From Ignavibacteriaceae bacterium (GTDB lineage Bacteria; Bacteroidota; Ignavibacteria; Ignavibacteriales; Ignavibacteriaceae), in contig JACAFA010000286.1 in NCBI GenBank assembly GCA_013388525.1, positions 1 to 25,238 on the forward strand: 25,238 bases of DNA. Direction: 5' to 3'. The stretch's first letter is position 1. The number at the start of each line of letters is the position of its first letter. The notes under the pieces are model-generated. The model was not told where the DNA came from. It worked only from the letters and a program-made list of their open reading frames with translations, and made no database searches. Shown here piece by piece: positions 1,765-18,023 of the stretch. A program made the translations under genes and the position numbers.

Positions 1765-4700
1765 ATGATTATTGCAGGGAAGAACCGGAAAATCTATTTA
1801 GCATTTCTTTTATTTGTTTCAGCATTTGCTGCAAATCTTTTTTCTCAAAGTCTGAGCTTCAATAGCCTTTCTGTTAAGGACGGTTTATCGAACAATAAAG
1901 TAAATACCATTCTTCAGGATAGTAATGGATTCATCTGGCTGGGAACAGAAGACGGTTTAAATCGTTATGATGGTTATAAATTTAAAATCTACCGGAACAA
2001 TCCGTTGGATTCTAATTCTATATCTGATAATTATGTCTGGTCACTGTTTGAAGATGAAGATGAAAATCTCTGGATTGGCACCAAAAGCGGAGATTTAAAT
2101 CTTTATGATTTAAAGAGTGATTCGTTCCGCCATTGGAAAATTGAAACCCGGAGTGTCAAAGAAAGTGGTATTATTTCAATCTTTAAAGATTCTAATGGTA
2201 ATGTCTGGATTGGCACATATCAATCAGGTCTTTACCGGTTGAATCCTGAAACAAATGAACTCATAAACTGGAATTACAACCCGGACGATCAAAAATCTCT
2301 CAGTAACAACTTTGTTACATCAATTATTGAAGACGATGGTAATCTGTGGATAAGCACTTACAACGGGCTTAATAAATTTAATTTGAAAGTCAATGACAAC
2401 ACATTCACAAGATTCTACTCTGAACCTCAAAATAAAAACAGCCTCAGCAATAATCTCATCTGGGAAATATCAAAATCTGAATTCAATCCCGATGTCTTGT
2501 GGATTGGAACTGCAAATGGTTTAGTAAGATATAATAAAAGTAAAAATTCATTTACAAGAATTGACCTTCCGGAAAGCAATTTACTCCAATTTGCAAACAG
2601 TATTTCCTCTATTGTTGAAGAGAAAATTAATAATGAAACAGTGTTATGGTTAGGCACATACTCAGGACTGGTTCGCCAGAATTTGAATAGCGGCAGGTCA
2701 GTCAGATTTTTGAAAAATGAATCCGATCCTTCAAGTCTGGTAAGCAATGAAATAAATCAGGTTATGAAAGACAGATCGGGTGTTATCTGGATGGCAACTG
2801 AAAACGGACTTAGTAATATCTCTAAGAAAGCAACTAAGTTTAATAATCTTTTCAGTGAGCAAAAAGGAGTTCTGGGATTAGAAGAACTAAAAAAGAAAAA
2901 TGTCAAATCTATTGATCAACACGATGATGGTTCTATCTTCTTCGGAACTTCCAACGGAATTTACTATTTAAACGGCAGTTCTTCTGATCGAAAGCTCCGC
3001 AGGTTCAACAATACAGAAGGACTAAACGTCTGGTCAATGGTTTCAGGCAGCTCAGATTACTTATGGATAGGAACTTACGGTCAGGGCTTGAAGCAGCTTA
3101 ATCTGAAAAATGGCAGAGTAAAAAACATCAACATTAAAAGTCCTACATTTGAAACTTCAGCTTACAATTATATAAAATCATTACACCTTGAAGAAAATAT
3201 TTTGTGGATGGGATTCTGGGGTGGTGGATTTGCCAGGTATGATACCGAAACAGGAAATTATAAAATCTGGATTACCGAATCTTCAGATCCACATAGTATA
3301 AGTTATAACGATCTCTGGTCAATTATCCGCGACAGAAAAGGAAGACTCTGGCTCGGAACAAACGGAGGCGGACTAAATCTATTTGATAACTCGTATGAAG
3401 GTAAATTTTATCGCTTAAATGAAGATAACGTGAGTTCAATTAAACTCAGCGGTAACAGCATTTACTCTTTGTGCGAAGGTAAAAGAGGAAAGTATTCTGA
3501 TGAAACTGAGCAAACAATTCTCTGGGTTGGAACAAGCAGCGGATTAAATAAATTATTTATAAACTCATCTCCCGATATTTTCAAAGCTGATGCATCAAAT
3601 ACAAAAGTTATTAGTTATTCAACTGAAAACGGACTTTCTGATAACTCAATTAAAAGTATTCTTGAAGATGAAAACGGAAATCTCTGGCTTGCAACAAATG
3701 CGGGTATTTCTTTCTTTGATATTGAGAAAGAAAACTTTACAAATTTCTCAGCATCAGATGGATTAAGAGGAAATGATTTCAATTCAGAATCTGCTCTTTA
3801 CTCCAATGATGGTCTGATGTATTTAGGCAGCACCGAGGGATTAAATGTATTTGATCCAGAACAAATAACTCAGTCCGATTTTATTCCTCCTCTGGTATTT
3901 ACAGATTTTCAGATTTTTAATCAGCCTATAAAAATCGGCGGTGATTCCCCTCTTAAAAAAAATATTCTTGATGCAGAAGAAATTATTCTTCCGTTCTCAC
4001 AGAATGTTTTCTCGTTTGAATTTGCGGCTCTGGATTATAACTCGCCTCAATCAATTCAATATTCATATATGATGGAAGGCTTTGATGATGACTGGGTATC
4101 TGCCGGCAACAGAAGATTCATAACTTACACAAATCTTAATTCGGGCAGTTACATTTTCAAGGTGAAGGCTACCAACAGTGATGGTGTTTGGAGTGATAGC
4201 TACAAATCTATTTCAGTAATCATCAATCCGCCCTGGTGGAGAACAAGCTGGGCGTATGTGGTTTATGTATTTTTAATTATTGGCGGGCTGTACACTGCCA
4301 GAAGAATTGAAATGAATCGTTCGCGCCTTCGTAATGAACTAAAAATGCGTGAGTATGAAGCAAACAAACGTGCAGAGCTTGAAAATTTAAAATCCAGATT
4401 CTTCGCGAACCTTTCTCATGAATTCAGAACACCGCTCACTCTCATTCGGGGACCGATTGAAGAATTGATAAATAAAAAAGCCGGCGATAATCAGGAGGAA
4501 TATCTTCAGCTTATTAAACGCAACAGTGAGAAACTTCAGGAACTGATTGACCAGCTTCTGGAATTAACTCAGCTTGAGAATGCATCCATTCCATTAAAAG
4601 CACAACAGGAAAACCTTGTAAAAATTCTGCGCGGAATGTTTTATTCGTTTGAGTCGCTGGCAAAACAAAAGAACATCAATCTCTCTTTCATTTGTGTTGA

Positions 4701-5970
4701 TGAATCAATAATCAGCTGGGTTGACAGAGATAAGCTCGAAAAAATAATTAACAATTTACTTTCCAACGCTTTCAAGTTTACACCGGATAATGGCAGTATT
4801 TCTCTGAGCGTTACCAGACAAATAAAAGATGAAAAAGAATTTGCAGAAATTAAAATAGCTGATACCGGAATAGGTATTCCGCCAGATAAAATTAAAAATA
4901 TTTTTGACCGATTTTACCAGGTTGATGACACAACAAGAAAAAAATACGGCGGCTCCGGAATTGGTCTGGCTTTAGTGAAAGAACTTGTTGACCTGCATAA
5001 ATGGAATATCGAAGTTCAAAGTGAATTTGGAAAGGGAACTGAGTTTATTCTTACTATCCCGATATCGGATACTTATCTCAGTGAACAAGAAAAGGTCCTC
5101 GGACAGATTGTTGATTCTGAAAAAGAAGCGGAAACTAATTGGGAGCTTACAGAAGAAGATTCTGAACAAATTGAAATAGAGATCGAAAAAGAAATTCAGG
5201 AAAAACAAAAGCTGCTCGGCGCAAAACCTCTGCTTTTAATTGTTGAAGATTCAGAAGATGTTCGCTCTTACTTAACCGGTCTTTTGAAAAATGATTATCA
5301 ATTAAGTGAAGCTGTAGATGGTGAGGATGGAATAAGTAAAGCTTCTGAACTTATGCCAGATCTGATTATCAGCGATGTGATGATGCCTTCGATGGATGGT
5401 TTTGAGTTCTGCAAGAAAATAAAAACTGACTGGCAGACGAGTCATATTCCCGTAATTCTTCTCACTGCAAAAGCTTCAGCTGAAAGTAAAATTGAAGGTC
5501 TTGAAACCGGTGCCGATGATTATCTTACAAAACCTTTCAGCTCTAAAGAATTATTTATAAGAATTAAAAACCTTCTCGAGCAGCGAAAGAAACTACGCGA
5601 GAAGTTCGGCAGGGAAATTAAAGTTGATACTTCTGCAATTGCAGTAAATTCAGTTGATAATGAATTTCTCGAAAAAGCTTTTGCAGTTGCAGAAAAAAAT
5701 CTATCCAGGACTGAATTCAACTCCGAAGCTTTTGCAAAAGAAATGTTTCTAAGCCGCAGCCAGCTTCACCGCAAATTACTTGCAGTTACTGGTCAGGCAC
5801 CGGGAGAATTTATCAGGACTTACAGACTTAAAAAGGCTGCTTCACTCATACTTGAAAACAAATTAAACGTAACGCAGATTGCTTTCGAGGTTGGATTCAG
5901 CAGTCCTTCACATTTCTCTAAAGCATTCAAACAGCAATTCAACTGTCTTCCGAAAGAGTTCAGCGGTTAG
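1765..5970 (+). CDS. Hybrid two-component system protein (periplasmic sensor, histidine kinase, receiver, AraC DNA-binding)
   Basis: 1401 residues with the full layout of Bacteroidota HTCS regulators. A signal/anchor (residues 1-28) is followed by 14 propeller repeats of the type LWIGTxxGLxxYD, enough for two seven-bladed propellers. Then come a Y_Y_Y domain (~755-820), one membrane span (~828-850), a HisKA domain with phospho-accepting His885 in SHEFRTPLT, and a HATPase with N box NNLLSNAFKF and G boxes DTGIGI and GGSGIGLAL. A receiver follows with Asp1204 in ISDVMMP and Lys in TKPF, then an AraC helix-turn-helix at the C-terminus. Family knowledge: such proteins sense oligosaccharides in the periplasm and activate polysaccharide-use genes from a membrane-bound position. 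The amylase just upstream is a plausible target, but this is inference from position. No clear Shine-Dalgarno precedes the ATG. Every key residue I looked for is present. Confidence 0.97.
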   Translation: MIIAGKNRKIYLAFLLFVSAFAANLFSQSLSFNSLSVKDGLSNNKVNTILQDSNGFIWLGTEDGLNRYDGYKFKIYRNNPLDSNSISDNYVWSLFEDEDENLWIGTKSGDLNLYDLKSDSFRHWKIETRSVKESGIISIFKDSNGNVWIGTYQSGLYRLNPETNELINWNYNPDDQKSLSNNFVTSIIEDDGNLWISTYNGLNKFNLKVNDNTFTRFYSEPQNKNSLSNNLIWEISKSEFNPDVLWIGTANGLVRYNKSKNSFTRIDLPESNLLQFANSISSIVEEKINNETVLWLGTYSGLVRQNLNSGRSVRFLKNESDPSSLVSNEINQVMKDRSGVIWMATENGLSNISKKATKFNNLFSEQKGVLGLEELKKKNVKSIDQHDDGSIFFGTSNGIYYLNGSSSDRKLRRFNNTEGLNVWSMVSGSSDYLWIGTYGQGLKQLNLKNGRVKNINIKSPTFETSAYNYIKSLHLEENILWMGFWGGGFARYDTETGNYKIWITESSDPHSISYNDLWSIIRDRKGRLWLGTNGGGLNLFDNSYEGKFYRLNEDNVSSIKLSGNSIYSLCEGKRGKYSDETEQTILWVGTSSGLNKLFINSSPDIFKADASNTKVISYSTENGLSDNSIKSILEDENGNLWLATNAGISFFDIEKENFTNFSASDGLRGNDFNSESALYSNDGLMYLGSTEGLNVFDPEQITQSDFIPPLVFTDFQIFNQPIKIGGDSPLKKNILDAEEIILPFSQNVFSFEFAALDYNSPQSIQYSYMMEGFDDDWVSAGNRRFITYTNLNSGSYIFKVKATNSDGVWSDSYKSISVIINPPWWRTSWAYVVYVFLIIGGLYTARRIEMNRSRLRNELKMREYEANKRAELENLKSRFFANLSHEFRTPLTLIRGPIEELINKKAGDNQEEYLQLIKRNSEKLQELIDQLLELTQLENASIPLKAQQENLVKILRGMFYSFESLAKQKNINLSFICVDESIISWVDRDKLEKIINNLLSNAFKFTPDNGSISLSVTRQIKDEKEFAEIKIADTGIGIPPDKIKNIFDRFYQVDDTTRKKYGGSGIGLALVKELVDLHKWNIEVQSEFGKGTEFILTIPISDTYLSEQEKVLGQIVDSEKEAETNWELTEEDSEQIEIEIEKEIQEKQKLLGAKPLLLIVEDSEDVRSYLTGLLKNDYQLSEAVDGEDGISKASELMPDLIISDVMMPSMDGFEFCKKIKTDWQTSHIPVILLTAKASAESKIEGLETGADDYLTKPFSSKELFIRIKNLLEQRKKLREKFGREIKVDTSAIAVNSVDNEFLEKAFAVAEKNLSRTEFNSEAFAKEMFLSRSQLHRKLLAVTGQAPGEFIRTYRLKKAASLILENKLNVTQIAFEVGFSSPSHFSKAFKQQFNCLPKEFSG

Positions 5971-6175: not shown

Positions 6176-6194
6176 TAATTTGAACTCTATCCAA

Positions 6195-6335: not shown

Positions 6336-6604
6336 ATAGAATGAGTTCAAGACGATATTTATAAAAGAAATTTCAAATATTTTTATTTAGAATTTATTTG
6401 TTTTTTAATACTTGGATTTTGTTATTTCCATTTTGGTTCAGGCTATTCTGGTATATGGAATTAGGGATAGGTGAAGATTATGGTCAATAAGTAAAAATTC
6501 GTTAAAAACCCAAAAAACTATTAACTAAAACCAAGGACTAATAAACCAGAACTAAAAACTAACAAACTAATAACCAACCCCTTATACCCCTATACTTTTT
6601 ACCC

Positions 6605-6676
6605 CCATTTTGCAACAAATCCGCTAAACTTTGACACACAAACGACAGCGGACGCTCTACTTATAAATTAACTTTG
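6605..6676 (+). promoter_or_regulatory. Promoter/operator-like element, copy A
   Basis: Positions 6605-6658 (54 bases) match 13720-13773 at 49 positions with no gap. The element ends in the palindrome AGCGGACGCT (6647-6656). Twelve bases further on is TAACTTTG (6669-6676), a match to the Bacteroidota -7 box TAnnTTTG. No TTG lies at the expected -33 position; the palindrome sits there instead, as expected for a promoter that needs an activator. It precedes the gene at 6737 and the first half of the secreted-protein island. Confidence 0.55.
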
Positions 6677-6736: not shown

Positions 6737-7999
6737 ATGAAAATCTATTCTAATCTTTTAACCATAGTCTTGCTAATTTTATCGCAAGGTGTTAATGCAC
6801 AGTGGGTATATGTAGGAATCCCAACAAGCAGATCAGTGCAGGCATTTGCATTTGAAGATTCAACTGTAGTCATTGGAACAAATCAGGGAATGAATTATTC
6901 ATCAGATTATGGAAACAACTGGACTTTTGGCGGCGGCGGGATAGCATATGTAGATATTCGAGCGGTTGTTTTCGCTCCGATTTTTACACAATACTATCAG
7001 GATAATTGGTTAGCTGGTACAAATGGTTCATACATTTATGGCTCTCTCATTCCTGCAACTAATTGGACAACGTTTCCCAATGATACAGCGGTATTAACCG
7101 GAGGTAATAATGTCAATTCAATTTTAAAAACCACCGGAGATGAATTATATGTTGGCACTGATAAAGGAATGTATATCCTGAAAGGCGGGCCTCCCAATGA
7201 ATATTGGGATAGAATAAATAACGGACTGTATTCCGGAGATTTTACGATCGTGAGAGATGTGATAGAATTTAATGGTGATGTTTTTATCGGCACAAACAGT
7301 GGAGTATATAAAAGAACAAGTTCAGGCTGGATTGAGAAAAATGTTGGTCTAACGAACACGAATGTTACCGCTCTTGGTGGTTCTGGAAGTTTTTTATTTG
7401 CCGGTACAAATACCAGTTCTACCGAGGGTGTATTCATTTCATCTGATCATGGAGAAAGCTGGTCATTTTTACTAACAATTCCTTGGGTTACATCAATCCA
7501 GGCTATTGGTCCGAACATTTTTGCCAGCAGCTATGGTGATGGAATCTGGCTATCGATAGATTATGGCAGTTCGTGGACTCAAATAAATGATGGATTTAGT
7601 TCAAGTGCATATTATGTGTTGTCCACAGGTATAAATGATAAATATATTTATGCAGGAACAAATGCCTCGGGCGTTTGGCGGAGAGAACTAACAGAACTTA
7701 TAACTGATGTAAATAGTGGTAATAATTTAACTCCATCTGAATTTTATTTAGAACAAAACTATCCTAATCCATTCAATCCATCTACTAGTATCCAGTATCA
7801 AGTATCTAGTATCTCTCAGGTAACACTCAAAGTTTATGATATTCTTGGTAATGAAATTGTAACATTAGTTAACGAAGAAAAACCTGCAGGCATTTATGAA
7901 ATAGCTTTTTATGCAACTGGATTATCCTCCGGAATATATTTCTACAAATTGAGTGCAGGTTCTTTCGTTCAAACAAGGAAGATGTTGCTTGTTAAATAA
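6737..7999 (+). CDS. Secreted beta-propeller protein with T9SS type A sorting domain
   Basis: 420 residues. A strong Shine-Dalgarno, aaaggagg (6724-6731), fixes the start. Residues 1-21 are a signal peptide with probable cleavage at NA|QW. Residues ~22-325 contain repeated propeller-like strands (VVIGTNQGMNYSSDYG, LYVGTDKGMYIL, VFIGTNSGVYK, LFAGTNT, IYAGTNASGVW) resembling sialidase/photosynthesis-repair-type propellers, though no catalytic motif is visible. The C-terminus from about residue 340 is a T9SS sorting domain (NYPNPFNPSTSIQYQ to RKMLLVK). The protein should be exported and then delivered to the surface or released. It is the first gene after promoter copy A, and the small membrane protein at 8001 begins one base after its stop. 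Function of the propeller is unknown; binding rather than catalysis is my guess. Confidence 0.88.
   Translation: MKIYSNLLTIVLLILSQGVNAQWVYVGIPTSRSVQAFAFEDSTVVIGTNQGMNYSSDYGNNWTFGGGGIAYVDIRAVVFAPIFTQYYQDNWLAGTNGSYIYGSLIPATNWTTFPNDTAVLTGGNNVNSILKTTGDELYVGTDKGMYILKGGPPNEYWDRINNGLYSGDFTIVRDVIEFNGDVFIGTNSGVYKRTSSGWIEKNVGLTNTNVTALGGSGSFLFAGTNTSSTEGVFISSDHGESWSFLLTIPWVTSIQAIGPNIFASSYGDGIWLSIDYGSSWTQINDGFSSSAYYVLSTGINDKYIYAGTNASGVWRRELTELITDVNSGNNLTPSEFYLEQNYPNPFNPSTSIQYQVSSISQVTLKVYDILGNEIVTLVNEEKPAGIYEIAFYATGLSSGIYFYKLSAGSFVQTRKMLLVK
7785..7812 (+). repeat. Heptanucleotide repeat inside the T9SS domain
   Basis: Four perfect head-to-tail heptamers of consensus CnAGTAT (ctagtat, ccagtat, caagtat, ctagtat) lie inside the sorting domain of the propeller gene, coding for part of TSIQYQVSSI. 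Since 28 bases is not a multiple of three, gain or loss of one unit would shift the frame. Confidence 0.7.
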
Positions 8000-8000
8000 A

Positions 8001-8144
8001 GTGAAAGTCAAACCAGATCCGGACAGAATATCCGAAGAAATTGAGAAAAGCGAAAAGCGGTTTAGGCTGGCAATGATTATAGTTCTGTTGATTGTCAGCT
8101 GTGCTGCAGTTATGATATTCATAAGCTTAATAAGTGTTTTATAG
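8001..8144 (+). CDS. Small single-span membrane protein (paralogue 1 of 3)
   Basis: 47 residues from GTG at 8001, one base after the upstream stop, which suggests translational coupling; no clear Shine-Dalgarno. A charged head (DPDRISEEIEKSEKRFR) is followed by a hydrophobic span of about 22 residues and almost no tail, predicting a cytoplasmic N-terminus and one membrane helix. From Ser11 (SEEIEKSEK) to the stop it aligns without gaps, 37 columns, to the proteins at 13358 and 13848; Lys, Lys, Leu, Ser and Met are shared by all three at columns 6, 9, 13, 23 and 28. An in-frame GTG at 7953 would overlap the upstream gene; I prefer 8001 because the paralogues have no matching extension. Function unknown. 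Confidence 0.65.
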   Translation: MKVKPDPDRISEEIEKSEKRFRLAMIIVLLIVSCAAVMIFISLISVL

Positions 8145-8203
8145 TTCAAATTACTAATGAAGCAAACAGTAATCTGTAAACAGTAATAAACATAGGAGTA
8201 AAA

Positions 8204-9607
8204 ATGAAAAACTTTTTTTCAACGATCGTTTTAAGTGTAATGCTTATATCTGTAATATCAAATGCACAGGATATAACAAACACACTTGCACCAAATGGGA
8301 GTTTTAAAGTTAAAGATGGCGCAACTGATTACCTTTCTTTATCGCAGACAACAGGCAACTTAATTTTATTCAGAAACTTTGAAATGAATGGTTTAGAAGA
8401 AGATTCAACAACAACAGTTATACGCTTAAACGGGCAAAGATTTATGCATAATTATAAAGGAATAGGAACAAATGGATTTAATACCTTCCTTGGCCTTAAT
8501 GCTGGAAGCTTTTCGGTTGGAGGATTTTCGTTCCAAGGAAGCTACAATACAGGCGTTGGATTTGAATCACTGACATCGCTAACAACTGGTTACTATAATT
8601 CTGCCTTTGGTAGTAGGTCACTTTCCAACAACACAACTGGCAAAAATAATTCAGCTTTCGGATTAAAATCTCTTTACAACAACACAACCGGAACTGATAA
8701 TTCAGCTTTCGGAAATTACACACTAAACGATAACACCAGTGGAAGATATAATTCTGCTTTCGGAATAGCATCTCTTCTGAAAAATACAACTGGAAATTTC
8801 AATTCCGCCTTTGGTTTAAACACGCTCGGCGCTAATACTTCAGGAACCCGAAATTCCAGTTATGGGGCTCTATCTCTTTTCATGAACACGATAGGCAATC
8901 AGAATACAGCAGTCGGCTATAAATCGTTGTATTCAAATGTATCTGGTTTTCAAAATACTGCTGTAGGTGATTCTGCGCTTTATAAAAACACAGGCAACTA
9001 CAATACAGCTATCGGTTATAACGCAGGTTCAAATGTAACAACCGGTGCAAACCTTACCTTAATCGGGATTGATGCAAATCCTTCCTCTCCGACGGCAATA
9101 GACCAGATAACACTGGGAAACCAGTTTGTTCAATCACTTCGCTGCAATGTGCAGACTATTACAAGTCTTTCAGATGCAAGAAATAAGAAGAATATAGAAG
9201 ATTTATCTCTCGGACTTGACTTTATAACAAAACTAAAACCAAGACAATTCAACTGGGATAGAAGGGATTGGTATGAAGGGGGAAAATCAGATGGAAGTAA
9301 AATGAAAGAAGAACCAACAGCAGGATTTATTGCACAGGAACTTGATGAATTACAAAATGAAGAACACGCAGAATGGCTGAACCTTGTGTTAAAAGATAAT
9401 CCGGAAAAGTGGGAGGCAACTTATGGAAATCTTTTACCTGTGATTGTTAAAGCAGTGCAGGAGTTGAAAGCAGAGAAAGATACAGAGATATCGGAATTAA
9501 AAATTCAAAATGAAAAATTAACAATTAAAAATGCAAACCTCGAAGAACGACTTTCAAAGTATGAAGAGATGCAGACTGTTCTTGTAAAAAAGTTAGAACA
9601 AATTTAA
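8204..9607 (+). CDS. Secreted repeat fibre protein with C-terminal peptidase S74 self-cleaving chaperone domain
   Basis: 467 residues; Shine-Dalgarno taggag before the ATG. Signal peptide ends at SNA|QD. After a ~90-residue N-terminal region come 10 tandem repeats of consensus NSAFGxxSLxxNTTGxx (17 residues, one with 16), resembling heads of trimeric adhesins and phage fibres. A peptidase S74 intramolecular chaperone domain begins at LSDARNKKNIEDL: Ser323 and Lys328 have the five-residue spacing of the Ser-Lys dyad known in this family (e.g. MyRF). The C-terminus (~420-467) is a coiled coil. Family knowledge: the domain trimerises, cuts itself just before the Ser and is released. No T9SS domain is present, so how it crosses the outer membrane is unclear. 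It is a tandem paralogue of the next gene. An adhesin or surface fibre is likely. Confidence 0.87.
   Translation: MKNFFSTIVLSVMLISVISNAQDITNTLAPNGSFKVKDGATDYLSLSQTTGNLILFRNFEMNGLEEDSTTTVIRLNGQRFMHNYKGIGTNGFNTFLGLNAGSFSVGGFSFQGSYNTGVGFESLTSLTTGYYNSAFGSRSLSNNTTGKNNSAFGLKSLYNNTTGTDNSAFGNYTLNDNTSGRYNSAFGIASLLKNTTGNFNSAFGLNTLGANTSGTRNSSYGALSLFMNTIGNQNTAVGYKSLYSNVSGFQNTAVGDSALYKNTGNYNTAIGYNAGSNVTTGANLTLIGIDANPSSPTAIDQITLGNQFVQSLRCNVQTITSLSDARNKKNIEDLSLGLDFITKLKPRQFNWDRRDWYEGGKSDGSKMKEEPTAGFIAQELDELQNEEHAEWLNLVLKDNPEKWEATYGNLLPVIVKAVQELKAEKDTEISELKIQNEKLTIKNANLEERLSKYEEMQTVLVKKLEQI
8546..9052 (+). repeat. Ten tandem coding repeats of 51 bp
   Basis: Nine 17-codon units and one 16-codon unit (total 169 codons), each starting with Asn-Ser/Thr and spanning AFG...NTTG. 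The repeats are diverged at DNA level, so this is an old expansion rather than a recent slippage tract. Confidence 0.88.
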
Positions 9608-9682
9608 TCCAGTGAACAGTTGCTCAAAGTTCAATTAGTGAATTCTGAAATCAATAATCAATAAACAAAACAGGAGTAATAA

Positions 9683-11797
9683 ATGAAAAACATTCTCTCA
9701 ACAATCGTTATCAGTATAATGCTGTTAAATTTTGTATCCAATGCACAGGATATAACAAACACTCTTGCACCAAATGGGAATTTCAAAATTAAGGATGGTA
9801 CATCAGACTATCTTTCACTTTCTCAATCGAACGGAAATTTATCTCTATTCAGGAATTTAGAACTAGGTGGAATATTCAATTCCACTTCGGAAAGAGGAGT
9901 AATTACAAAGGGTGGAGTCAGTTTTCTACATAATTATGGTTTACAAAATATATTTATTGGTTTTTATTCAGGAAATTTTTCTCTTAATGCAACTAGTTCT
10001 GTTGCGAATACCGCTGTTGGGTTTGGCACTTTACAGTCATTAACTACAGGACTAGAAAATTCAGCATTTGGAAACGAAGCACTCCGCTTTAATACAACAG
10101 GAAATTATAACTCAGCTTTTGGTTCTTTTGCTTTAACACCAAATACAATTGGTTCTTATAATTCAGCGTTTGGATACAGCTCTTTAAGAAACAACACAGA
10201 AGGGAATAATAATTCAGCTTTTGGAACTGCTGCCCTATACTCTAATACAACAGGCAATTTTAATTCAGCTTTTGGGAATAATTCTTTACAGTTTAATACA
10301 ACTGGATATGGTAATGCGGCATTTGGATACCAAGCACTTTATTCTAATACGACCGGACTTTTTAACACAGCAGTTGGGCAAAGTGCTTTAGGAAATAATA
10401 CAACTGCTAATGATAATACAGCAGTTGGTTCCAATTCATTGGTTTTTAATACAACGGGTGAAAATAATACCTCAGTTGGTGCAGCATCTCTTTATTTAAA
10501 TACGGTAGGTAATGATAATTCAGCTTTTGGTTTCTATTCCTTAGGATCTAATACTGCTGGTTTCGGGAATTCCGCAGTTGGTGTAAAATCACTTTATTCA
10601 AATACAAGTGGAGATAACAACTCAGCTTTCGGATTTCAATCACTTTATTCAAATACTACAGGTATATATAATTCAGCCTTCGGATCTAATTCTCTTTTTA
10701 ACAATACAACAGGCTTCCATAACTCAGGGTTCGGATATAAGTCATTATTCTATAATACAACTGGTTATAATAATTCTGGTTTCGGATATTTTTCGCTCTA
10801 CTCAAATAGCACCGGAAACTATAATTCAGGATTTGGACACCAATCTCTCGCATCCAATACAACAGGTAATAATAACTCAGCATTTGGTTTCGCTTCAATG
10901 GTACAGCACACAACAGGAACAGGTAATTCCGCATTTGGTTATCAATCACTTTATTCAAGCACGACTTCTGACTACAATTCTGCCTTCGGAGTTAATTCAT
11001 TATATGATAATACTACCGGCTATGCAAATTCAGCTTTTGGGTACAGAGTGCTTGAGAACAATACAGTAGGATTCGGAAATACCGGTGTTGGAAGTGAAGC
11101 TTTGTTAAATAAAACCACTGGTGACCAAAATACAGCCATAGGTTACTTCTCAGGTTCTAACATCACTTCCGGGACTAACAATATAACAATCGGTTATAAT
11201 GCACAGGTACCAAATAATGCAGCTAACAATCAGATCAGGCTTGGCAATGCATCAATCAGTTATGCAGGAATTCAGGTCGGCTGGACAATAACAAGTGACA
11301 GGAGATGGAAAGAAAATATAGAGCCAAGTAATCTCGGTCTTGGATTTATATCAAAGCTTAATCCTGTATCATATACAAGGATAAATGACGAAAACCACAG
11401 AGCAGAATATGGATTGATAGCACAGGAAGTAGAGGAGGTTCTGAAAGAATGTGGATTGGCAGATAAAACCGGTATGCTTACAGTAACAGAAGAAGGGATG
11501 TATGAGCTTCGTTACAATGACCTTATTGCACCAATGATAAAAGCGATACAAGAATTAAAAATTCAAAATGAAAAATTGTCCGAAGGACTCCATTCGGAAA
11601 AAATTAAAAATGCAAATGAGATAACAAAACTGACAGAGGAAAACTTAAAACTTCAGTCAGAACTTAAAAGTCTCAGTTCAATTAAAGAAGATATAAGCAG
11701 AATTGAATCTTTAAAGGAAGAATTAATTCAGCAGATAAATGAGCTGAAGTCAATCCGAAAAGAATATGAAAATAAATTTAGCTCATTAGAAAACTAA
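9683..11797 (+). CDS. Secreted repeat fibre protein with peptidase S74 domain, longer paralogue
   Basis: 704 residues; Shine-Dalgarno caggag before the ATG. The first ~60 residues closely match the gene upstream (both contain SNAQDITNTLAPNG and SDYLSLSQ or TDYLSLSQ), showing tandem duplication. Then 23 exact-length 17-residue repeats of consensus NSAFGxxSLxxNTTGxx (residues ~109-499), more than double the sister. The S74 chaperone domain begins at TSDRRWKENIEPSNLGLGF with Ser538 and Lys543 as the probable cleaving dyad, followed by a ~75-residue coiled coil (EKLSEGLHSEKIKNANEITK onward). Expected product: a self-processed trimeric fibre longer than its neighbour's. Eleven bases separate it from the next gene, so they are probably co-transcribed. 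Confidence 0.88.
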   Translation: MKNILSTIVISIMLLNFVSNAQDITNTLAPNGNFKIKDGTSDYLSLSQSNGNLSLFRNLELGGIFNSTSERGVITKGGVSFLHNYGLQNIFIGFYSGNFSLNATSSVANTAVGFGTLQSLTTGLENSAFGNEALRFNTTGNYNSAFGSFALTPNTIGSYNSAFGYSSLRNNTEGNNNSAFGTAALYSNTTGNFNSAFGNNSLQFNTTGYGNAAFGYQALYSNTTGLFNTAVGQSALGNNTTANDNTAVGSNSLVFNTTGENNTSVGAASLYLNTVGNDNSAFGFYSLGSNTAGFGNSAVGVKSLYSNTSGDNNSAFGFQSLYSNTTGIYNSAFGSNSLFNNTTGFHNSGFGYKSLFYNTTGYNNSGFGYFSLYSNSTGNYNSGFGHQSLASNTTGNNNSAFGFASMVQHTTGTGNSAFGYQSLYSSTTSDYNSAFGVNSLYDNTTGYANSAFGYRVLENNTVGFGNTGVGSEALLNKTTGDQNTAIGYFSGSNITSGTNNITIGYNAQVPNNAANNQIRLGNASISYAGIQVGWTITSDRRWKENIEPSNLGLGFISKLNPVSYTRINDENHRAEYGLIAQEVEEVLKECGLADKTGMLTVTEEGMYELRYNDLIAPMIKAIQELKIQNEKLSEGLHSEKIKNANEITKLTEENLKLQSELKSLSSIKEDISRIESLKEELIQQINELKSIRKEYENKFSSLEN
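10007..11179 (+). repeat. Twenty-three tandem coding repeats of 51 bp
   Basis: 1173 bases, exactly 23 x 51, with no indel in any unit. Variation is concentrated at repeat positions 6-7, 10-11 and 16-17, while Asn1, Gly5 and the NTTG block are well kept. Confidence 0.9.
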
Positions 11798-11808
11798 AGG
11801 AGATAAAA

Positions 11809-13116
11809 ATGAAATCAATCAAATATTTAATCGTTACTATTTTATTATCGCAATTTGCGATTGCTCAAAGCATAGTAATCGGAAGCGGTTCATCAATTGA
11901 AGTTGGATTAGGCTCAGATATTTGTGCAGGTGTTTATGGCAATATAACAGGCAATTTATTTGGAGAAGGGACACAGTGTAATCAGTCAGCTGTAACAACT
12001 TTTCAACTAGCCGTTAATATAATTAATGGCTGGAATATGGTATCAATTCCTGGCTTACATCCAGTAGATCAGAATGTAAATACCTGGTGGCAGTACAGAG
12101 ATCCGGGCGCTAATGTATTCAAGTATTCAGGTTCATATCAGCAGGTAACAACCGCAACACCTGGAACTGGTTACTGGATGAAACACGCTGGTGCGAGGAC
12201 ATATAACACCGGTGACGAATGGCCAGCAGGAGGAATACAGATAGTTGCACACAATCCAATACCAGGAACAGTTGGATGGAATCTGATAGGTGGATACGAG
12301 ACAAGTGTAGCAACATCAGGAATGACAACAACACCTCCGGGATTGATAGTATTCCCAGTATATAAATACTCAGGCGGATATCAGGTAGCTGCAACATTGG
12401 ATCCGGGCTATGGATATTGGGTAAAACTCAGTGGAGCCGGACAGATAAACATCCCAAGTTCAATGGCAAAAGGCAGCTTAGAAATAGCTGACTATTTTCC
12501 ATCAGAATGGGGGAAAATAATATTTAGTGATAACGCTGGCAATAGCTATGTGCTTTACGCCGCCGATGAAAAAACTGATCTTAGTGTATATGAACTGCCG
12601 CCAGCACCTCCCTCAGGTATGTTTGATATCAGATTTGGAAGTGGAAGAATAGCTGAGGATATTAATAAATCAGTCCAGACAATTGAGCTGAGCGGAGTTC
12701 AATATCCTTTAACTGTTAGAGTTGAAAATATGTCCATCCGGTTGCAGGACGGATTGGGTAATCATATGAATAAAGTACTTAAAACAGGAGAAGATATTGT
12801 AATTAATGATGCAACCTTAAGCAAGCTGACTATTTCAAAAGATAAAATACCAGAAACTTTCGCCCTTGAACAGAACTATCCAAATCCATTCAATCCAAGC
12901 ACAACGATAAGTTTCGCACTGCCGCAGGCAACACAATTAAAGATAAAAGTATATAATATGCTTGGCGAGCAAGTAAACACAATCGCAGAAGGAATGTATG
13001 ACGCAGGATATCATAAAGTAACATTCAATGCAAGCAATCTGCCAAGCGGAACATATATCTATCGGTTGGAAAGTAATGATTTCGTTCAGGTTAGAAAGAT
13101 GATTTTAATAAAATAA
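11809..13116 (+). CDS. Secreted protein with a duplicated module and T9SS type A sorting domain
   Basis: 435 residues; Shine-Dalgarno aaaggag 11 bases after the previous stop. Signal peptide ends at AIA|QS. The middle carries two related modules of about 65-70 residues: the first has NGWNMVSIPG, VFKYSGSYQQ and GTGYWMKHAG, the second VGWNLIGGYE, VYKYSGGYQV and GYGYWVKLSG. I do not recognise a named family with certainty; similar GWN...YW modules occur in secreted T9SS cargo. Residues ~350-435 are a T9SS sorting domain (NYPNPFNPSTTISFA to RKMILIK) of the NMLGEQV subtype, nearly the same as in the gene at 18047 and unlike that of the genes at 1 and 6737. Secreted or surface-bound; function unknown. 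Confidence 0.85.
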   Translation: MKSIKYLIVTILLSQFAIAQSIVIGSGSSIEVGLGSDICAGVYGNITGNLFGEGTQCNQSAVTTFQLAVNIINGWNMVSIPGLHPVDQNVNTWWQYRDPGANVFKYSGSYQQVTTATPGTGYWMKHAGARTYNTGDEWPAGGIQIVAHNPIPGTVGWNLIGGYETSVATSGMTTTPPGLIVFPVYKYSGGYQVAATLDPGYGYWVKLSGAGQINIPSSMAKGSLEIADYFPSEWGKIIFSDNAGNSYVLYAADEKTDLSVYELPPAPPSGMFDIRFGSGRIAEDINKSVQTIELSGVQYPLTVRVENMSIRLQDGLGNHMNKVLKTGEDIVINDATLSKLTISKDKIPETFALEQNYPNPFNPSTTISFALPQATQLKIKVYNMLGEQVNTIAEGMYDAGYHKVTFNASNLPSGTYIYRLESNDFVQVRKMILIK

Positions 13117-13158
13117 TTTTCCTAAAACTGATCAGTGACAAGCCTAAGGTAATAATAT

Positions 13159-13354
13159 ATTGAAAGATTTAGGCTGTGGCGTTTATTGTTCATACACAGC
13201 AGACATAAACTGTAATTGAATAGTAAACGCCACGTATCACTGCTCTGTCTGGAACAACCGGAACAAATTTACACAGGTGCCAGCACCGGTTGATAATCCC
13301 AACGGTGAAGTTATCATTTATAAAAAAGTAAATTCTGGAAAAAAACAGGAGTAA
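13159..13354 (+). pseudogene. Decayed 3' end of a dockerin-like-tailed gene
   Basis: Read in frame from 13162, the sequence gives KDLGCGVYCSYTADINCN, a stop at 13217-13219, then IVNATYHCSVWNNRNKFTQV and a tail of about 25 residues ending at TAA 13352-13354. This matches the C-terminus of the intact protein at 14058 (KDLGGGVFGLFTADTDGNGT, then VNASDRSSVWNNRN and TTQVPALVD). Key loop glycines are now Cys or stop (ggt to tgt, gga to tga) and the final loop Asp is Tyr. The left end fades near 13159. It is probably the remains of a third large secreted protein that once preceded the small membrane gene at 13358. Confidence 0.75.
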
Positions 13355-13357
13355 ATA

Positions 13358-13513
13358 ATGAATAATAATATTTCAACAATAAATAATACTGAAAGCTCAT
13401 TTGACCGATTACGGAAAAGTGATAAACGACTTAAGCTTGTTCTTGCGGCAGTGCTTTTTATCGCAAGCCTTGCGACGGTTATGGTAATTATTGGTTCACT
13501 TAATTCAAAATAG
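13358..13513 (+). CDS. Small single-span membrane protein (paralogue 2 of 3)
   Basis: 51 residues from ATG 13358 to TAG 13511-13513, with a good Shine-Dalgarno (aggag, 13347-13351) at six bases. A polar head (MNNNISTINNTESSFDRLRK) is followed by SDKRLK, then a span of ~22 hydrophobic residues ending VMVIIGSLNSK. From FDRLRKSDK to the stop it aligns without gaps over 37 columns to the proteins at 8001 (13 identities by my count) and 13848 (13 identities). The Shine-Dalgarno and context resemble those of the fibre genes (caggagtaa). It directly follows the decayed dockerin-like gene. Cytoplasmic head and inner-membrane location are predicted; function unknown. Confidence 0.75.
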   Translation: MNNNISTINNTESSFDRLRKSDKRLKLVLAAVLFIASLATVMVIIGSLNSK

Positions 13514-13719
13514 CGACAGAGATGTCTCGGACAATGTCAGAAAATCAGACAAGCATAGCTTTTTGTGAGTAATTGCAGAAAGGAAACTAGGAATAAAGGA
13601 AATAAGGATATTAAGGTATAAGGGTATATAGGAATATGGTATAAGGTATTTTGTGTTTGGAAAATTTTTAATTTTTAGTCCCTTATACCTCTATACCTTT
13701 ATAGCTTTGCCTGTAAGCT
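13514..13719. other. Gene-free stretch with purine-rich quasi-repeats
   Basis: No reading frame is supported here. The stretch contains the ~8-bp-period repeat at 13590-13650 and the ccttatacctctatac string at 13681-13696, shared with the region upstream of promoter copy A. There is no convincing terminator after 13513, so read-through from the upstream genes cannot be excluded. Confidence 0.5.
13590..13650. repeat. Short quasi-tandem repeat, period about 8 bp
   Basis: Eight aGG-centred units (ggaataaa, ggaaataa, ggatatta and so on) spaced 8, 8, 9, 8, 8, 7 and 7 bases. The units are imperfect. The pyrimidine-rich string at 13681-13696 is a rough inverted match to part of it. Confidence 0.5.
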
Positions 13720-13791
13720 CCATTTTGCAACAAATCCGCTAATGTTTGACACAAAAGCGACAGCGAACGCTCTCAATAAAAATTATTTTCG
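13720..13791 (+). promoter_or_regulatory. Promoter/operator-like element, copy B
   Basis: Positions 13720-13773 differ from copy A (6605-6658) at only 5 of 54 bases. The palindrome AGCGAACGCT (13762-13771) keeps both half-sites, the base difference falling in the spacer. Twelve bases further is TATTTTCG (13784-13791), at the same distance as the TAACTTTG of copy A. It precedes the small membrane gene at 13848 and the second half of the secreted island. Confidence 0.55.
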
Positions 13792-13847
13792 CAGCAAAAA
13801 AATCAGATATTTAACATAAACTCAACTAAAACACAGGGAAATCAAAA

Positions 13848-13973
13848 ATGGAAAAAACCTTCGATCAGTTAAAAAAACGGGAAAAAATTGTCTCACTCGC
13901 AGCTAAAGCTTTATTCTTTGTAGTCAGCCTGACTTTAATGATGATGATTTTAAGTATTGCAAGCTCTTTATGA
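13848..13973 (+). CDS. Small single-span membrane protein (paralogue 3 of 3)
   Basis: 41 residues, ATG 13848 to TGA 13971-13973; weak Shine-Dalgarno (aggga). The head MEKTFDQLKKREK is followed by a hydrophobic stretch to the stop, with one Lys near its start (SLAAKALFFVV). FDQLKKREK lines up with FDRLRKSDK of the protein at 13358, and the remaining 28 residues are the same length in all three proteins. It is the first gene after promoter copy B, and its stop overlaps the start of a 26-residue membrane peptide in the arrangement ATGA. Function unknown; its place at the head of a unit encoding two large secreted proteins hints at a role linked to their export or control. Confidence 0.72.
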   Translation: MEKTFDQLKKREKIVSLAAKALFFVVSLTLMMMILSIASSL

Positions 13974-14050: not shown

Positions 14051-14057
14051 AGGTTAT

Positions 14058-17000
14058 ATGAAAAACTTAATAAAAATTTTTATACTGCTTGTATTTTTAA
14101 CGGTTTTGATAATTCCACAAGAACAGCCCAATAACGATAAACGGCTGATAGTTCTCCCTGATGGAAAAGTTATGTCAGGAATTGATGGAACCATAATTTC
14201 AGACAAGCCTGAAACAAATTTTATAAAACAGAATCGCCAGCTTGATAGTCCGCCAATTGGTACACCCTATAGCTGGGATAATAATTTGGGTTTTTATGCC
14301 GGTTCTTCTGATTGGACAGTAAACGCGATTGCTGTTTCAGGTTCTGATGTTTACGTGGGCGGTGATTTTTTAGATGCAAATGGAAATTCAAATGCAGACC
14401 ATATAGTCAAATACAACCAAAAAACAAACACATACGAAGCTTTGGGCTTAGGTTTAAATGGTAGTGTTTATGCAATTGCAGTATCTGGTAATGATGTATA
14501 TGTGGGAGGAAATTTTACTGACGCCGGTGGAAACTCAAGTGCAGATTATATTGCACGCTGGGATGGAAATAATTGGAATGCATTAGGCGTTGGATTAAAT
14601 GATAATGTTTATGCAATCGCTATTCAGGGAAACAATGTTTATGTGGGCGGAGGTTTTACCAGTGCAGGAGGAATTTTTGAATCGGATTATATAGCAAAAT
14701 GGGATGGAAGTTCCTGGAGTTCGATGGGTCAGCTTGATGGTTTTGTTCGTGCTATCACCGTAAGTGGTTCGGAAGTTTTTGTTGGTGGTGAATTTTCATC
14801 TGCCAGCGCGGTAGGATTTAATTATTTTGCTATCTATGATGGTTCTAGTAATGTCTGGGGAGGGGATCTAGGAGCAAATTTAAATGGTGAAGTTCTGGCG
14901 ATCGCAATCTCAGGTTCCGATTTATATCTCGGTGGTGTATTTAAAGATGTTGGTGGGGATACATTAGCCGATGCTATTGTTTATTTTAATCTGGATACTT
15001 TTAGCGGCTGGCAATCACTAGGTAATGGTATCATCACAAATGATGCATATTATAGCTATGTCGCATCCATAGCAGCAATTGGAAAAGATTTATATGTCGG
15101 TGGACTTTTTCTTAAACCATACAGCTCGGATTTTGATTTTATCGCATACTGGAATGGAACAACATGGGATTCTTTAGATACTGGTTATGGATTGGCCTGG
15201 ACTTGCAGAGCGCTTGCTCTTTCGGGAACTGATCTTTTTGTGGGTCACGAATATGGTTTCAGTAGATGGTTTGGATCTTATGCCTCGGGTTTATATGGTG
15301 GGGTGCAAAAACCATTAACTGATGGAACTGGATTTTTAGAATTCAATACTGCCAATGATTCAACTGTAATTAGCTTAGAGCTAAACTACTACAATGGTAA
15401 TACCGGAACATTCAATGTTTTCTGCTATGAAGACAAAATACTTGATGGAACAATTTTACCTATTGCAAACCACAGATGGATAATTCAGCAAACGGGTTTA
15501 CCTGGGAGTGAAATAAGTGGAACAATCAGAATTAAAGTTGTTGATTTACCAGACAGCAGTGGAATTATTTATCCGGGCAGCAGCGGTATTGGTATTTTTC
15601 AACGATCTACACCAGGCAGAGAGCAGTTTAATGATTTAACTCCTTTTACATGGTATGACTCGTATACCGGTGAGTATGTTACTCCATTTTTTGGTACTGG
15701 TGAATTTGTTATTGGTTTACCAAATACTGTGGATGGGGTTATAAGCGTTGGCGAGTATGGTACCCATGAAGAAGGTGAGAATATGCTGACCAGTGATGGC
15801 AAAACCTGGTATATGAAATCGGATGAATACTATTTTTATTTCGGTATTAGTAACTACACTAATGAAAATGATGCAATAAATATTTATCTGGATAATTCAG
15901 GTATTTCTCCAGTAAATTATCCTTGGGATTATTATGGTACCCTGACGGGAACGGGTAAAGATGGTGTAACCCCAAATTTACCTTTTGGCGCTGAATTTTT
16001 TGCTTATGTAAAGCCAGCATACGATGAATACAGATACACGGACCAATTTGGTGGTTGGATGGACAGTGTTGCTATAAGTTTTATAAGATCATACAATGAT
16101 GCCGGGAATGTTTTTGAATTCGCTATACCAATATCAAGTTTACCAGTTTCTACAAACATTTATAACTATCCATTAGATTGGTTTAATTGGTTAGGGTTTT
16201 TATCTAACAGTGGAAATATTTCATCACGTGTTCCCTCAAACCCTAATCCTTCCGGCATCTTAAATGATTTAGTTTGGTATTTTGCAACGAATATATATTC
16301 TCCAGCTTTCAAAAATAATTGCTATACTCACATCGGTCCTTCAATTCCAAATTTTGGAGCATTTGACTGTTATGAATTTACCTTTTATCCACAGTCTCCA
16401 ACAACATTTATAAACAGAACAAGCGGTGTATGGAATATTGAAGGTGATTTATGGGTGTATAACGGAACTTTAACTTTTCAGAACAGCGATTCTGTAAATG
16501 TTGGTGGATTTCTAACAGCAGGTGGAACCACAAATTTTTCTTATAACACTTCTGATGCGCCGTTAAATCTAAAATATTTCTTATGGCAATGGCCTCTTGG
16601 GGGAACTTTATTTATGGACAGTGGTCATTATCTAAATTTTGTTCCTACACTGTACAATAGCAACGCAACCTTTCAAAGTAACGCACTTTATCAAAATATT
16701 GTTGTAAATAACCCCTCTAAAGTTTATTTGAGATCTGATATGAAAATAAATCAATCTCTTACATTGCTTAATGGAAATATTCAAACAATCACTAACTACA
16801 CCCCTCCCGATACTTTCCGTGTTATTTTGAATAGCGGGGCAATCATTGGTGGTTCAGGTTATATCGAAGGATCTTTAGTTCAGTATGTAGATTTGGCTCC
16901 CGGTCCTAACGGTGGAGATTCACCCGATAATTTAGTAGTTAATTTTCCTGTAGGAACAGCAAATGGACCTTCTCCTGTTAGCTTCGATTTCAGCAGTGTT

Positions 17001-18023
17001 ACTTCACCGGGCAAACTAACTGTTGAAGCATTTCAGAGTATTCATCCGAATACAATTGATTCTTCTGAAACTCTGGGTCGGTACTGGAGAATAACTAAGG
17101 ATGAGAATCTCGCTTTCACAAGTGCAGATATAACCTTCAATTACCGACCGGAGGATTTTAACGGCACCACATTCTCTGAAGAAACTGATGAAGCTTCGAT
17201 GATTGTAGGCAAGTACGATGCAAGCTGGTCATATCCAAGCATTTTCACACGCACACCCGGCGGAATTAACGATGGCGGTTCAATAACAATTTCTGGTGTT
17301 ACATCCTTCTCTGATTTTACGATGTTCAAATCACAGCTTTCAGCTAATGTAAGAGTATTTCTTGAGGGTCCATATTTATCCGGTTCAATGAGCACAGCAT
17401 TAAACACCGGTGGAAGTATTCCACTTAGTCAGCCGTACTATATTGATCCGTGGGGATATAACGGAACCGAAACAGTTGCAAGTATTCCTTCCGGGGTTGT
17501 TGATTGGGTTTTATTAGAACTCAGATCAAACCCAACAACACAAGTTGCAAGAAGAGCAGCGTTCGTAAGAAGTAACGGTTCGCTTGTCGATCTCGATGGA
17601 ACAAGCAATGTCTCATTCACCGGAGTGCCGGCAGGGAATTATTATCTGGTAATTTATCACAGGAATCATCTCCCAATAATGACAGCAAGCACTGTAAGTG
17701 TATCTGAAACTCCGACATTGTACGATTTGTCAACTGGTCAGGGACAAGCATACGGTACAAATGCGATGAAAGATTTAGGTGGCGGAGTTTTTGGATTATT
17801 CACAGCAGACACAGACGGTAATGGAACAGTAAACGCCACAGACCGCAGCAACGCCTGGAATCAAAGAAACTTATCAGGGTATTATGGAACAGATGTGGAC
17901 TTAAGCGGAACAGTAAACGCCTCTGACCGAAGTTCAGTCTGGAACAATAGAAATATTACAACACAGGTTCCTGCACTTGTAGATGTACCTATACTAGAAA
18001 TTGCAAAAGAAAATAATCAATAA
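14058..18023 (+). CDS. Large secreted propeller protein with dockerin-like C-terminal calcium loops
   Basis: 1321 residues with a signal peptide (1-~21, cleavage before a Gln). Residues ~85-420 contain seven propeller blades of the pattern VYAIAVSGNDVYVGGNFTDA ... YIARWDG, enough for one seven-bladed propeller. Around 560-740 is a domain starting VDGVISVGEYG with ESDEYYFYFGI-like strands (KSDEYYFYFGISNY), which looks like a CBM9/DOMON-type carbohydrate-binding fold. The region ~790-1100 is beta-rich (possible beta-helix). The end has two F-hand loops, DTDGNGTVNATD at Asp1251 and DVDLSGTVNASD at Asp1279, each followed by RSxxWNxRN, as in dockerins. No T9SS type A domain is present, so the tail may be an alternative anchoring or docking device. 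It shares a transcript with the gene 23 bases downstream. Roles of the parts are inferred. Confidence 0.85.
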   Translation: MKNLIKIFILLVFLTVLIIPQEQPNNDKRLIVLPDGKVMSGIDGTIISDKPETNFIKQNRQLDSPPIGTPYSWDNNLGFYAGSSDWTVNAIAVSGSDVYVGGDFLDANGNSNADHIVKYNQKTNTYEALGLGLNGSVYAIAVSGNDVYVGGNFTDAGGNSSADYIARWDGNNWNALGVGLNDNVYAIAIQGNNVYVGGGFTSAGGIFESDYIAKWDGSSWSSMGQLDGFVRAITVSGSEVFVGGEFSSASAVGFNYFAIYDGSSNVWGGDLGANLNGEVLAIAISGSDLYLGGVFKDVGGDTLADAIVYFNLDTFSGWQSLGNGIITNDAYYSYVASIAAIGKDLYVGGLFLKPYSSDFDFIAYWNGTTWDSLDTGYGLAWTCRALALSGTDLFVGHEYGFSRWFGSYASGLYGGVQKPLTDGTGFLEFNTANDSTVISLELNYYNGNTGTFNVFCYEDKILDGTILPIANHRWIIQQTGLPGSEISGTIRIKVVDLPDSSGIIYPGSSGIGIFQRSTPGREQFNDLTPFTWYDSYTGEYVTPFFGTGEFVIGLPNTVDGVISVGEYGTHEEGENMLTSDGKTWYMKSDEYYFYFGISNYTNENDAINIYLDNSGISPVNYPWDYYGTLTGTGKDGVTPNLPFGAEFFAYVKPAYDEYRYTDQFGGWMDSVAISFIRSYNDAGNVFEFAIPISSLPVSTNIYNYPLDWFNWLGFLSNSGNISSRVPSNPNPSGILNDLVWYFATNIYSPAFKNNCYTHIGPSIPNFGAFDCYEFTFYPQSPTTFINRTSGVWNIEGDLWVYNGTLTFQNSDSVNVGGFLTAGGTTNFSYNTSDAPLNLKYFLWQWPLGGTLFMDSGHYLNFVPTLYNSNATFQSNALYQNIVVNNPSKVYLRSDMKINQSLTLLNGNIQTITNYTPPDTFRVILNSGAIIGGSGYIEGSLVQYVDLAPGPNGGDSPDNLVVNFPVGTANGPSPVSFDFSSVTSPGKLTVEAFQSIHPNTIDSSETLGRYWRITKDENLAFTSADITFNYRPEDFNGTTFSEETDEASMIVGKYDASWSYPSIFTRTPGGINDGGSITISGVTSFSDFTMFKSQLSANVRVFLEGPYLSGSMSTALNTGGSIPLSQPYYIDPWGYNGTETVASIPSGVVDWVLLELRSNPTTQVARRAAFVRSNGSLVDLDGTSNVSFTGVPAGNYYLVIYHRNHLPIMTASTVSVSETPTLYDLSTGQGQAYGTNAMKDLGGGVFGLFTADTDGNGTVNATDRSNAWNQRNLSGYYGTDVDLSGTVNASDRSSVWNNRNITTQVPALVDVPILEIAKENNQ

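Follow-up and report, generated by a model that had tools for sequence, protein, structure and literature searches.

We analysed a 25,238-nt stretch of DNA from an Ignavibacteriaceae bacterium (contig JACAFA010000286.1 of assembly GCA_013388525.1), hereafter called the window. It contains an island of genes for secreted proteins, in which three small open reading frames (ORFs) encode micro membrane proteins, named micro1, micro2 and micro3. An earlier note on this DNA had described these three proteins; beyond it, we found that the island is headed by a gene for a hybrid two-component system (HTCS) sensor/regulator and carries two copies of an operator-like direct repeat (Table 1). By sequence comparison, the micro proteins form a family under purifying selection that is linked to one HTCS clade (clade A), and the micro gene is often the first behind a repeat with a promoter box at fixed spacing. 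We lean, with some reserve, towards the reading that the micro proteins are made under HTCS control and modulate the sensor in the membrane, as MgrB acts on PhoQ.

The frames and lengths of micro1, micro2 and micro3 are those given in the earlier note, and its alignment was reproduced. From the head motif (SEEIEKSEK, FDRLRKSDK and FDQLKKREK, respectively) to the stop, all three proteins have 37 residues without a gap, and five columns are invariant (K6, K9, L13, S23 and M28). Ungapped identities were 13 of 37 for both neighbouring pairs, as counted before, and 11 of 37 for micro1/micro3. The summed BLOSUM score or summed identities of the three were matched by none of 20,000 shuffles, which preserved head composition and membrane-span composition separately, and positional orthologues of all three were present in an Ignavibacteriaceae metagenome-assembled genome (G001). 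Thus, these are not chance frames, as had been argued. Each micro gene also adjoins a secreted-protein gene or its remnant, as had been noted. The start of micro1 is 1 nt past the stop of a gene (6737-7999) with a type IX secretion system (T9SS) sorting domain (Por_Secre_tail), micro2 lies next to a dockerin-like remnant, and micro3 next to the gene at 14058-18023. An alternative in-frame GTG at 7953 would make micro1 63 aa long. In G001, the counterpart of the remnant is intact and overlaps micro2 by 8 nt.

Hydropathy and charge indicated one span with a basic head ahead of it in all 27 family members examined, in agreement with the charged head and single span first described for the window copies. 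K and R residues were more numerous ahead of the span than behind it in 27/27 (mean K+R of 4.6 in the 15 residues preceding the span and 0.26 following it), and every copy ended 0-6 residues past the predicted span. AlphaFold2, run for micro2 with nine relatives, gave one helix over residues 3-50 with a mean pLDDT of 78. The micro proteins probably sit in the membrane N-in, with a cytoplasmic head.

A profile of micro1-3 identified seven further homologues of 43-51 aa in the protein database, so the earlier concern that related genomes might hold none can be set aside. G001 contained four copies at E 1.2e-5 or better: one corresponding to each of micro1, micro2 and micro3, plus one more. A fifth, at E 0.88, was dropped, and weak profile hits within long frames (G028, G042, G337 and others) were dropped as chance. 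The homologues occurred in two settings. In the T setting, micro genes lie directly behind genes with a T9SS tail, some of them overlapping (G003, G016, G058, G348 and G001); G003 has three intact copies and one broken frame, all within 12 kb. In the H setting, micro genes lie directly behind an HTCS gene. An H-type profile matched 131 proteins at E up to 0.1; among the 120 matches listed, every name that gives an organism points to Ignavibacteria at one rank or another, and IALB_3181 of Ignavibacterium album is one of them. The T-setting and H-setting profiles were related by hhalign with 96% probability, a value inflated by composition for one-span proteins; in a single control, an unrelated micro profile gave no match.

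For micro1-3, Pfam gave no match at E 0.001, NCBIfam gave only an EssA match below the cut-off (E 0.019), and the best E value in PHROGs was 0.052. Twelve H-type members touched 12 Pfam families at E 0.1; the best match, TMEM132_C (E 0.0004), was below the cut-off of that family and was taken as a product of span composition. No T9SS component was among the Pfam or NCBIfam matches of the micro proteins. Neither a scan of viral contigs with the micro alignment nor a plasmid search with window 13100-14057 gave a match. When viral contigs were scanned with the protein at 18047-19222, the 26 loci obtained matched mostly through their T9SS tail, and the result was not used further. These libraries agree with the earlier remark that no named family was known. 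On the sequence evidence, the micro proteins are a new family of 38-62 residues with a single span and, in most members, a K-x-x-E/D-K head.

Other small proteins were seen near this family. Longer, W-type relatives carry 'WxIxxGDYxxxxxxY' ahead of a K-x-x-EK head; those in L069 and L080 adjoin T9SS genes, and the other four have neighbours that, on inspection by eye, resemble housekeeping genes. They were excluded from the locus counts below, though hhalign ties them to the family. Two degenerate copies with the frame broken in the head region were found in L066 (~5215-5320) and L177 (9364-9480). A second micro membrane protein of 32-37 aa ('RRDFFKIxYxxLLLxWLL'), apparently unrelated, directly follows an H-type micro gene in five loci (Table 1); its dN/dS in the G349/G031 pair was 0.21.

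We estimated nonsynonymous (dN) and synonymous (dS) divergence of the micro family by the Nei-Gojobori method. Pooled over seven copy pairs (306 codons), dN was 0.15, dS was 1.36 and dN/dS was 0.11 (bootstrap 0.06-0.16), a rough value because dS was saturated in three of the seven single pairs. The earlier note had named a ratio below 1 as support for its proposal, and the estimate indicates that the family is under purifying selection. It bears on the possibility that the micro genes are leader ORFs whose translation, rather than product, couples the expression of the next gene. The micro gene is often first in the presumed transcript or overlaps a neighbour, as a leader might; conservation of the amino acid sequence at this dN/dS and the same head-plus-span design in 27 copies leave this explanation barely credible. 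Small toxin- or holin-like peptides kept in a mobile surface island would resemble the micro proteins in size and hydrophobicity, the only features that favour such an origin. We consider it very improbable, given the conserved basic head, the purifying selection, the placement in regulated operons and the result that five proteins tried had no PHROGs match better than E 0.034.

We then compared the HTCS genes. The window protein combines a periplasmic propeller sensor, a histidine kinase, a receiver and an AraC-type DNA-binding domain, as is characteristic of an HTCS. In 16 micro-positive genomes, 66 HTCS C-terminal matches were listed at E 1e-12. These formed the tree input together with the window HTCS; one row shorter than 110 aa was removed, leaving 66 rows. 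Clade A comprised 27 rows with support of 100/99 and included the window HTCS; over 126 columns, this protein shared 87% identity with its G001 copy. A small hydrophobic ORF began no more than 700 nt downstream of 16 HTCS, all of them in clade A, and none of the 39 rows outside this clade had one; the 16 include L195 (66-aa ORF) and L207 (48-aa ORF), unrecognised by the family profiles, and the hydropathy cut was chosen after the gene maps had been inspected. With bit score alone, the small-ORF rule gave 15/25 vs 1/41 (p = 1.6e-7). With the family profiles applied up to 9 kb downstream, a member was found at 18 of 26 clade A HTCS and at 1 of 40 others (Fisher, 4e-9), several of the micro proteins so counted being themselves part of profiles A3 and A6. 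At the sole locus outside clade A, the micro gene belongs to the next clade A HTCS. Right behind the window HTCS, a 57-aa ORF (6010-6183) was considered as a micro gene; the hydropathy filter passed it over and it had no Pfam match, and it was rejected.

At the genome level, 80 genomes of the bacterial family were scored. Of the 17 micro-positive genomes, 16 had a clade A HTCS, compared with 2 of the 63 micro-negative ones (p = 9e-14), G001 being counted through the tree and not through its score. Micro-positive meant a match at E 0.001 or better in an open frame no longer than 100 aa, both limits having been fixed afterwards; G028, G042 and G337, with their only match in a long frame, were scored negative, and G341 was scored positive. 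G341, which has a W-type relative, is the exception among the micro-positive genomes. Within the 16 genomes of the tree only the locus-level contrast is fair, because these genomes were picked for carrying micro genes. At E 1e-47, 17 of 164 genomes of the order gave matches, all known already from the bacterial family; the shortened HTCS copy of G001 fell below this cut. The G001 HTCS (L064 / L028, end near 1427) loses its frame inside the AraC-type domain, and the rest of the domain-like sequence follows in another frame.

An 81-nt repeat occurs in the window at 6590 and 13705, with 80% identity. Its core is a direct repeat of TTTGCAACAAATCCGCTA / TTTGACACA-type half-sites, 21 bp apart. We trained an operator motif on the 350 nt following clade A HTCS genes. 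In leave-one-out scoring, in which nine start sites were kept in the first step even with their own locus left out, 24 of 26 clade A loci reached at least 20 bits, and the maximum at the 40 other HTCS was 15.7. The two copies in the window (Table 1) compare with 2.9 bits for the best other site. A strict operator pattern gave 15 matches in 12 of the 80 genomes, and a reversed-pattern control gave 0. Thirteen matches lay within 0.6 kb past a clade A HTCS (G351 and G352 included), one directly before the G001 counterpart of micro3, and one, with three mismatches, elsewhere in G031.

In 25 of the 26 clade A loci, the repeat is followed at an identical offset by a TAnnTTTG-type box (TA and three or four letters of TTTG), which lies outside the stretch used to train the operator. 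TAnnTTTG is the -7 consensus reported for B. fragilis (PMC7366714). Published Bacteroides HTCS motifs consist of direct repeats, such as 16-bp sites separated by 5 bp or 12-bp sites separated by 9 bp (PMC3878776); both spacings amount to a 21-bp period, as in the clade A repeat. The window repeat thus has the arrangement of an HTCS operator, a direct repeat of about 21 bp upstream of the promoter of the adjacent operon. Clade A HTCS probably bind the 21-bp-period repeat, for which the indirect case is strong.

Operator and -7 box were located directly upstream of micro3 and of 15 homologues. By hand count, 15 of the 26 clade A loci have a micro gene as the first gene past the repeat (L188-L192, L171, L173, L196, L199, L200, L203, L204, L207, L208 and L064). 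The L207 gene (48 aa), missed by the family profiles, was counted by position and design only, and for L188 and L199, where the longest ORF begins inside the repeat, a later start was adopted. The micro gene is second in L193, and in nine other clade A loci a larger gene, mostly with a T9SS tail, comes first. In G001, one copy of the repeat is directly ahead of the micro1 counterpart and another ahead of the micro3 counterpart. In L195 (G049), the 66-aa membrane ORF at 5266-5466 lies between two operator copies and is first after the repeat. The assignment of the micro genes to the regulon of clade A HTCS is well supported by this arrangement.

Table 1 Features of the window and of small proteins in related loci.
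Locus	Feature	Position	Strand	Basis or remark
Window	HTCS hybrid sensor/regulator, clade A	1765..5970	+	Pfam: Reg_prop propeller, Y_Y_Y, HisKA, HATPase, receiver, AraC-type helix-turn-helix
Window	Operator-like direct repeat, copy 1	6609..6648	+	Two half-sites 21 bp apart; profile 53.4 bits
Window	TAACTTTG, -7-type box	6669..6676	+	Fixed distance from operator copy 1; consensus TAnnTTTG from PMC7366714
Window	Secreted protein, T9SS sorting domain (Por_Secre_tail)	6737..7999	+	Pfam; first gene after operator copy 1
Window	micro1, 47 aa	8001..8144	+	GTG start
Window	Protein with NSAFG-type repeats and Peptidase_S74 chaperone domain	8204..9607	+	Pfam scan; repeat search
Window	Second NSAFG-repeat / Peptidase_S74 protein	9683..11797	+	Pfam scan; repeat search
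Window	Secreted protein, T9SS sorting domain	11809..13116	+	Pfam
Window	Remnant, end of dockerin-type gene	~13126..13353	+	Dockerin label from the earlier note and this analysis, without family search
Window	micro2, 51 aa	13358..13513	+	Single helix predicted
Window	Operator-like direct repeat, copy 2, immediately before micro3	13724..13763	+	53.5 bits; same place in G001
Window	TATTTTCG, -7-type box	13784..13791	+	One mismatch to TAnnTTTG; fixed distance from operator copy 2
Window	micro3, 41 aa	13848..13973	+	First gene after operator copy 2
Window	Large secreted protein, Rax2-like propeller, dockerin-like end	14058..18023	+	Next after micro3
Window	Secreted protein, T9SS sorting domain	18047..19222	+	Last gene of island
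L069	W-type relative	7791-8228		
L080	W-type relative	7697-7912		
L075	W-type relative	8936-9205		
L078	W-type relative	7995-8189		
L178	W-type relative	2105-2299		
L185	W-type relative	8580-8798		
L071	Second micro protein	8827-8934	-	
L073	Second micro protein	8563-8676	-	
L170	Second micro protein	9436-9543	+	
L171	Second micro protein	1305-1418	-	
L173	Second micro protein	755-853	-	

The genes around the micro genes admit a different role, that of a cargo-specific export accessory made together with a secreted protein and aiding its passage through the inner membrane or its route to the T9SS motor. The 1-nt gap between micro1 and the T9SS gene, the overlap of such gene pairs by 4 nt in G016 and by 11 nt in G003, their spacing of 4-36 nt in G001, G003, G016, G058 and G348 (first possible start codon assumed) and the position of the window copies among secreted genes are consistent with such a role. 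We nevertheless consider it unlikely. T9SS genes follow HTCS of both clade A and the other group, among them many clade B HTCS that lack a micro gene. In the four genomes checked, Por_Secre_tail matches numbered at least 150 per genome, with micro genes at few loci only; therefore, T9SS cargo alone does not bring a micro gene. Adjacency to T9SS genes was also rejected as the defining link, since it fails to distinguish clade A loci from those of other HTCS. Moreover, the gene right after the micro gene is not always a T9SS gene: type VI secretion genes follow in L200, and in L203 a protein kinase follows, with a T9SS gene third. In L068 (9339-12780, G010), three type VI secretion genes come after an HTCS-micro pair and encode an FHA protein, a TssJ-type lipoprotein and VasE/ImpJ. 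From this locus, clade A sensors may also control a contact-dependent secretion system.

The micro proteins might instead be membrane anchors or assembly partners of the S74 / NSAFG-repeat surface fibres. micro1 or its counterpart is directly ahead of an S74 gene in the window and in G003, and the G001 counterpart is ahead of an NSAFG-repeat gene cut by the contig end, the cut piece having no domain match. By eye, no such gene lies directly around the micro genes of L175, L176 and L179, without an S74 search across all loci, and we regard this role as highly improbable.

The interpretation in the earlier note was thus borne out in part. Homologues do recur beside secreted-protein genes and are not scattered without a link to them; the supposed link to the T9SS or dockerin cargo itself gave way to one with a single HTCS clade. 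Its suggestion of an aid to export was not borne out as the best reading, since micro genes follow HTCS even where type VI secretion genes or a kinase come next. Its option of regulatory peptides agrees with the reading favoured here, in which an action on the sensor would be the regulatory step. It had also held that frames interrupted in close relatives would speak against the proposal; two single copies (G003 and G034) are so interrupted, and many others are intact.

Side observations were made on the secreted genes of the island. A 247-nt repeat (79%) is common to two T9SS sorting domains (12870-13116 and 18976-19222), and a 129-nt repeat (74%) is shared by the dockerin remnant (13126-13254) and the dockerin-like end of the 14058 gene (17732-17860). 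Both repeats are signs of domain shuffling within the island. The two S74 proteins contain 51-nt (17-aa) NSAFG-type repeats between 8629 and 11040, with a 33-nt core unit present 21 times.

The favoured reading draws on known small regulators. Pfam and NCBIfam contain an MgrB model. MgrB was not found in Pfam with micro1-3 at E 0.001, in NCBIfam with eight proteins or among the 12 Pfam families touched by A6 members, no direct alignment to MgrB being made; as judged from these searches, the micro proteins are not MgrB. The likeness is one of design. MgrB, of 47 aa, interacts with and represses PhoQ (PMC2789325); its span mediates the contact, and two cytoplasmic lysines matter (PMC8404706, PMC8534201). 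The micro proteins are likewise predicted to be one-span inner-membrane proteins; they are of similar size, have lysines in a probably cytoplasmic head and, judged by sequence, are products of a sensor kinase regulon. Their proposed partner differs in being a hybrid sensor with a propeller, and some loci have several copies. SafA, UgtL and MzrA are small membrane activators of PhoQ and EnvZ (PMC8534201); they too are small proteins of the inner membrane expressed under two-component control, and they act on sensor kinases, as proposed for the micro proteins. By their published descriptions rather than by sequence, they stand apart: SafA and MzrA act through a periplasmic part that the micro proteins do not have, and UgtL has two spans. 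The Bacteroides HTCS regulons (PMC3878776) show the same domain order and direct-repeat operators of about 21-bp period before the neighbouring operon. They serve polysaccharide use (susC/susD), whereas the genes here encode micro membrane proteins and T9SS/S74 surface proteins; the parts of PMC3878776 consulted mention no micro membrane partner.

In the proposed mechanism, the propeller of a clade A HTCS would sense a signal, and the HTCS would bind the tandem 21-bp-period direct repeat just upstream of the TAnnTTTG promoter. Bound HTCS would turn on the operon, whose genes encode secreted surface proteins as well as micro proteins. The latter would enter the inner membrane head-in, beside the HTCS, and, by analogy with MgrB, adjust its signalling via its single span and the juxtamembrane helix leading to the kinase. 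Contact between micro protein and HTCS is thus presumed; the effect would most likely be negative feedback, as with MgrB and PhoQ, and activation is possible.

Several observations weigh against this mechanism. MgrB needs a periplasmic part with two important cysteines (PMC8404706), whereas the micro proteins end 0-6 residues past the span and have no such part. Several micro genes are tightly coupled to T9SS genes (overlapping or less than 40 nt apart), which fits a cargo role, and some copies (micro1, micro2 and those of G003 and G016:C51) are separated from the HTCS gene by ~2-15 kb, with genes for secreted proteins ahead of them. The copy G001:C330 is in a locus headed by a propeller histidine kinase and a separate LuxR-type regulator, not an HTCS. 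The lowest operator scores in clade A (L205, 1.7 bits; L200, 8.5 bits) are within the range outside the clade. Eight of 26 clade A HTCS had no downstream profile hit, three of them near contig ends and one (L207) with an unrecognised look-alike, and G351 (short contig) and G352, clade A by score and outside the starting set, had no micro gene; therefore, a micro protein is not obligatory for clade A. The broken frames in G003 and G034 may reflect decay or assembly error.

We offer a more specific proposal only tentatively, and think it rather less likely than its opposite. The micro proteins could be dedicated single-span partners of this Ignavibacteriaceae HTCS clade, encoded by first or cargo-coupled operon genes and retuning the sensor in each round of surface-protein production, with diverged copies giving graded or cargo-specific feedback. 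If so, they would be a built-in accessory subunit for the HTCS class.

Small membrane regulators of sensor kinases are an established kind, as are HTCS and their repeats; HTCS are a major regulator class in Bacteroides (PMC11253607). Among the open-literature papers listed, compared mainly at the title and abstract level, none dealt with this family or with micro membrane partners of HTCS; to that extent, the micro family, its link with a single HTCS clade and its regulon membership appear to be new. If the micro proteins modulate HTCS, they would form an extra layer of signalling, easily missed by annotation because the genes have ~40-60 codons. The operator, the promoter spacing and the candidate partner are now specified well enough for direct testing. 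With its 131 database relatives (H-type, E up to 0.1), the family makes a case for finding small membrane regulators by regulon logic.

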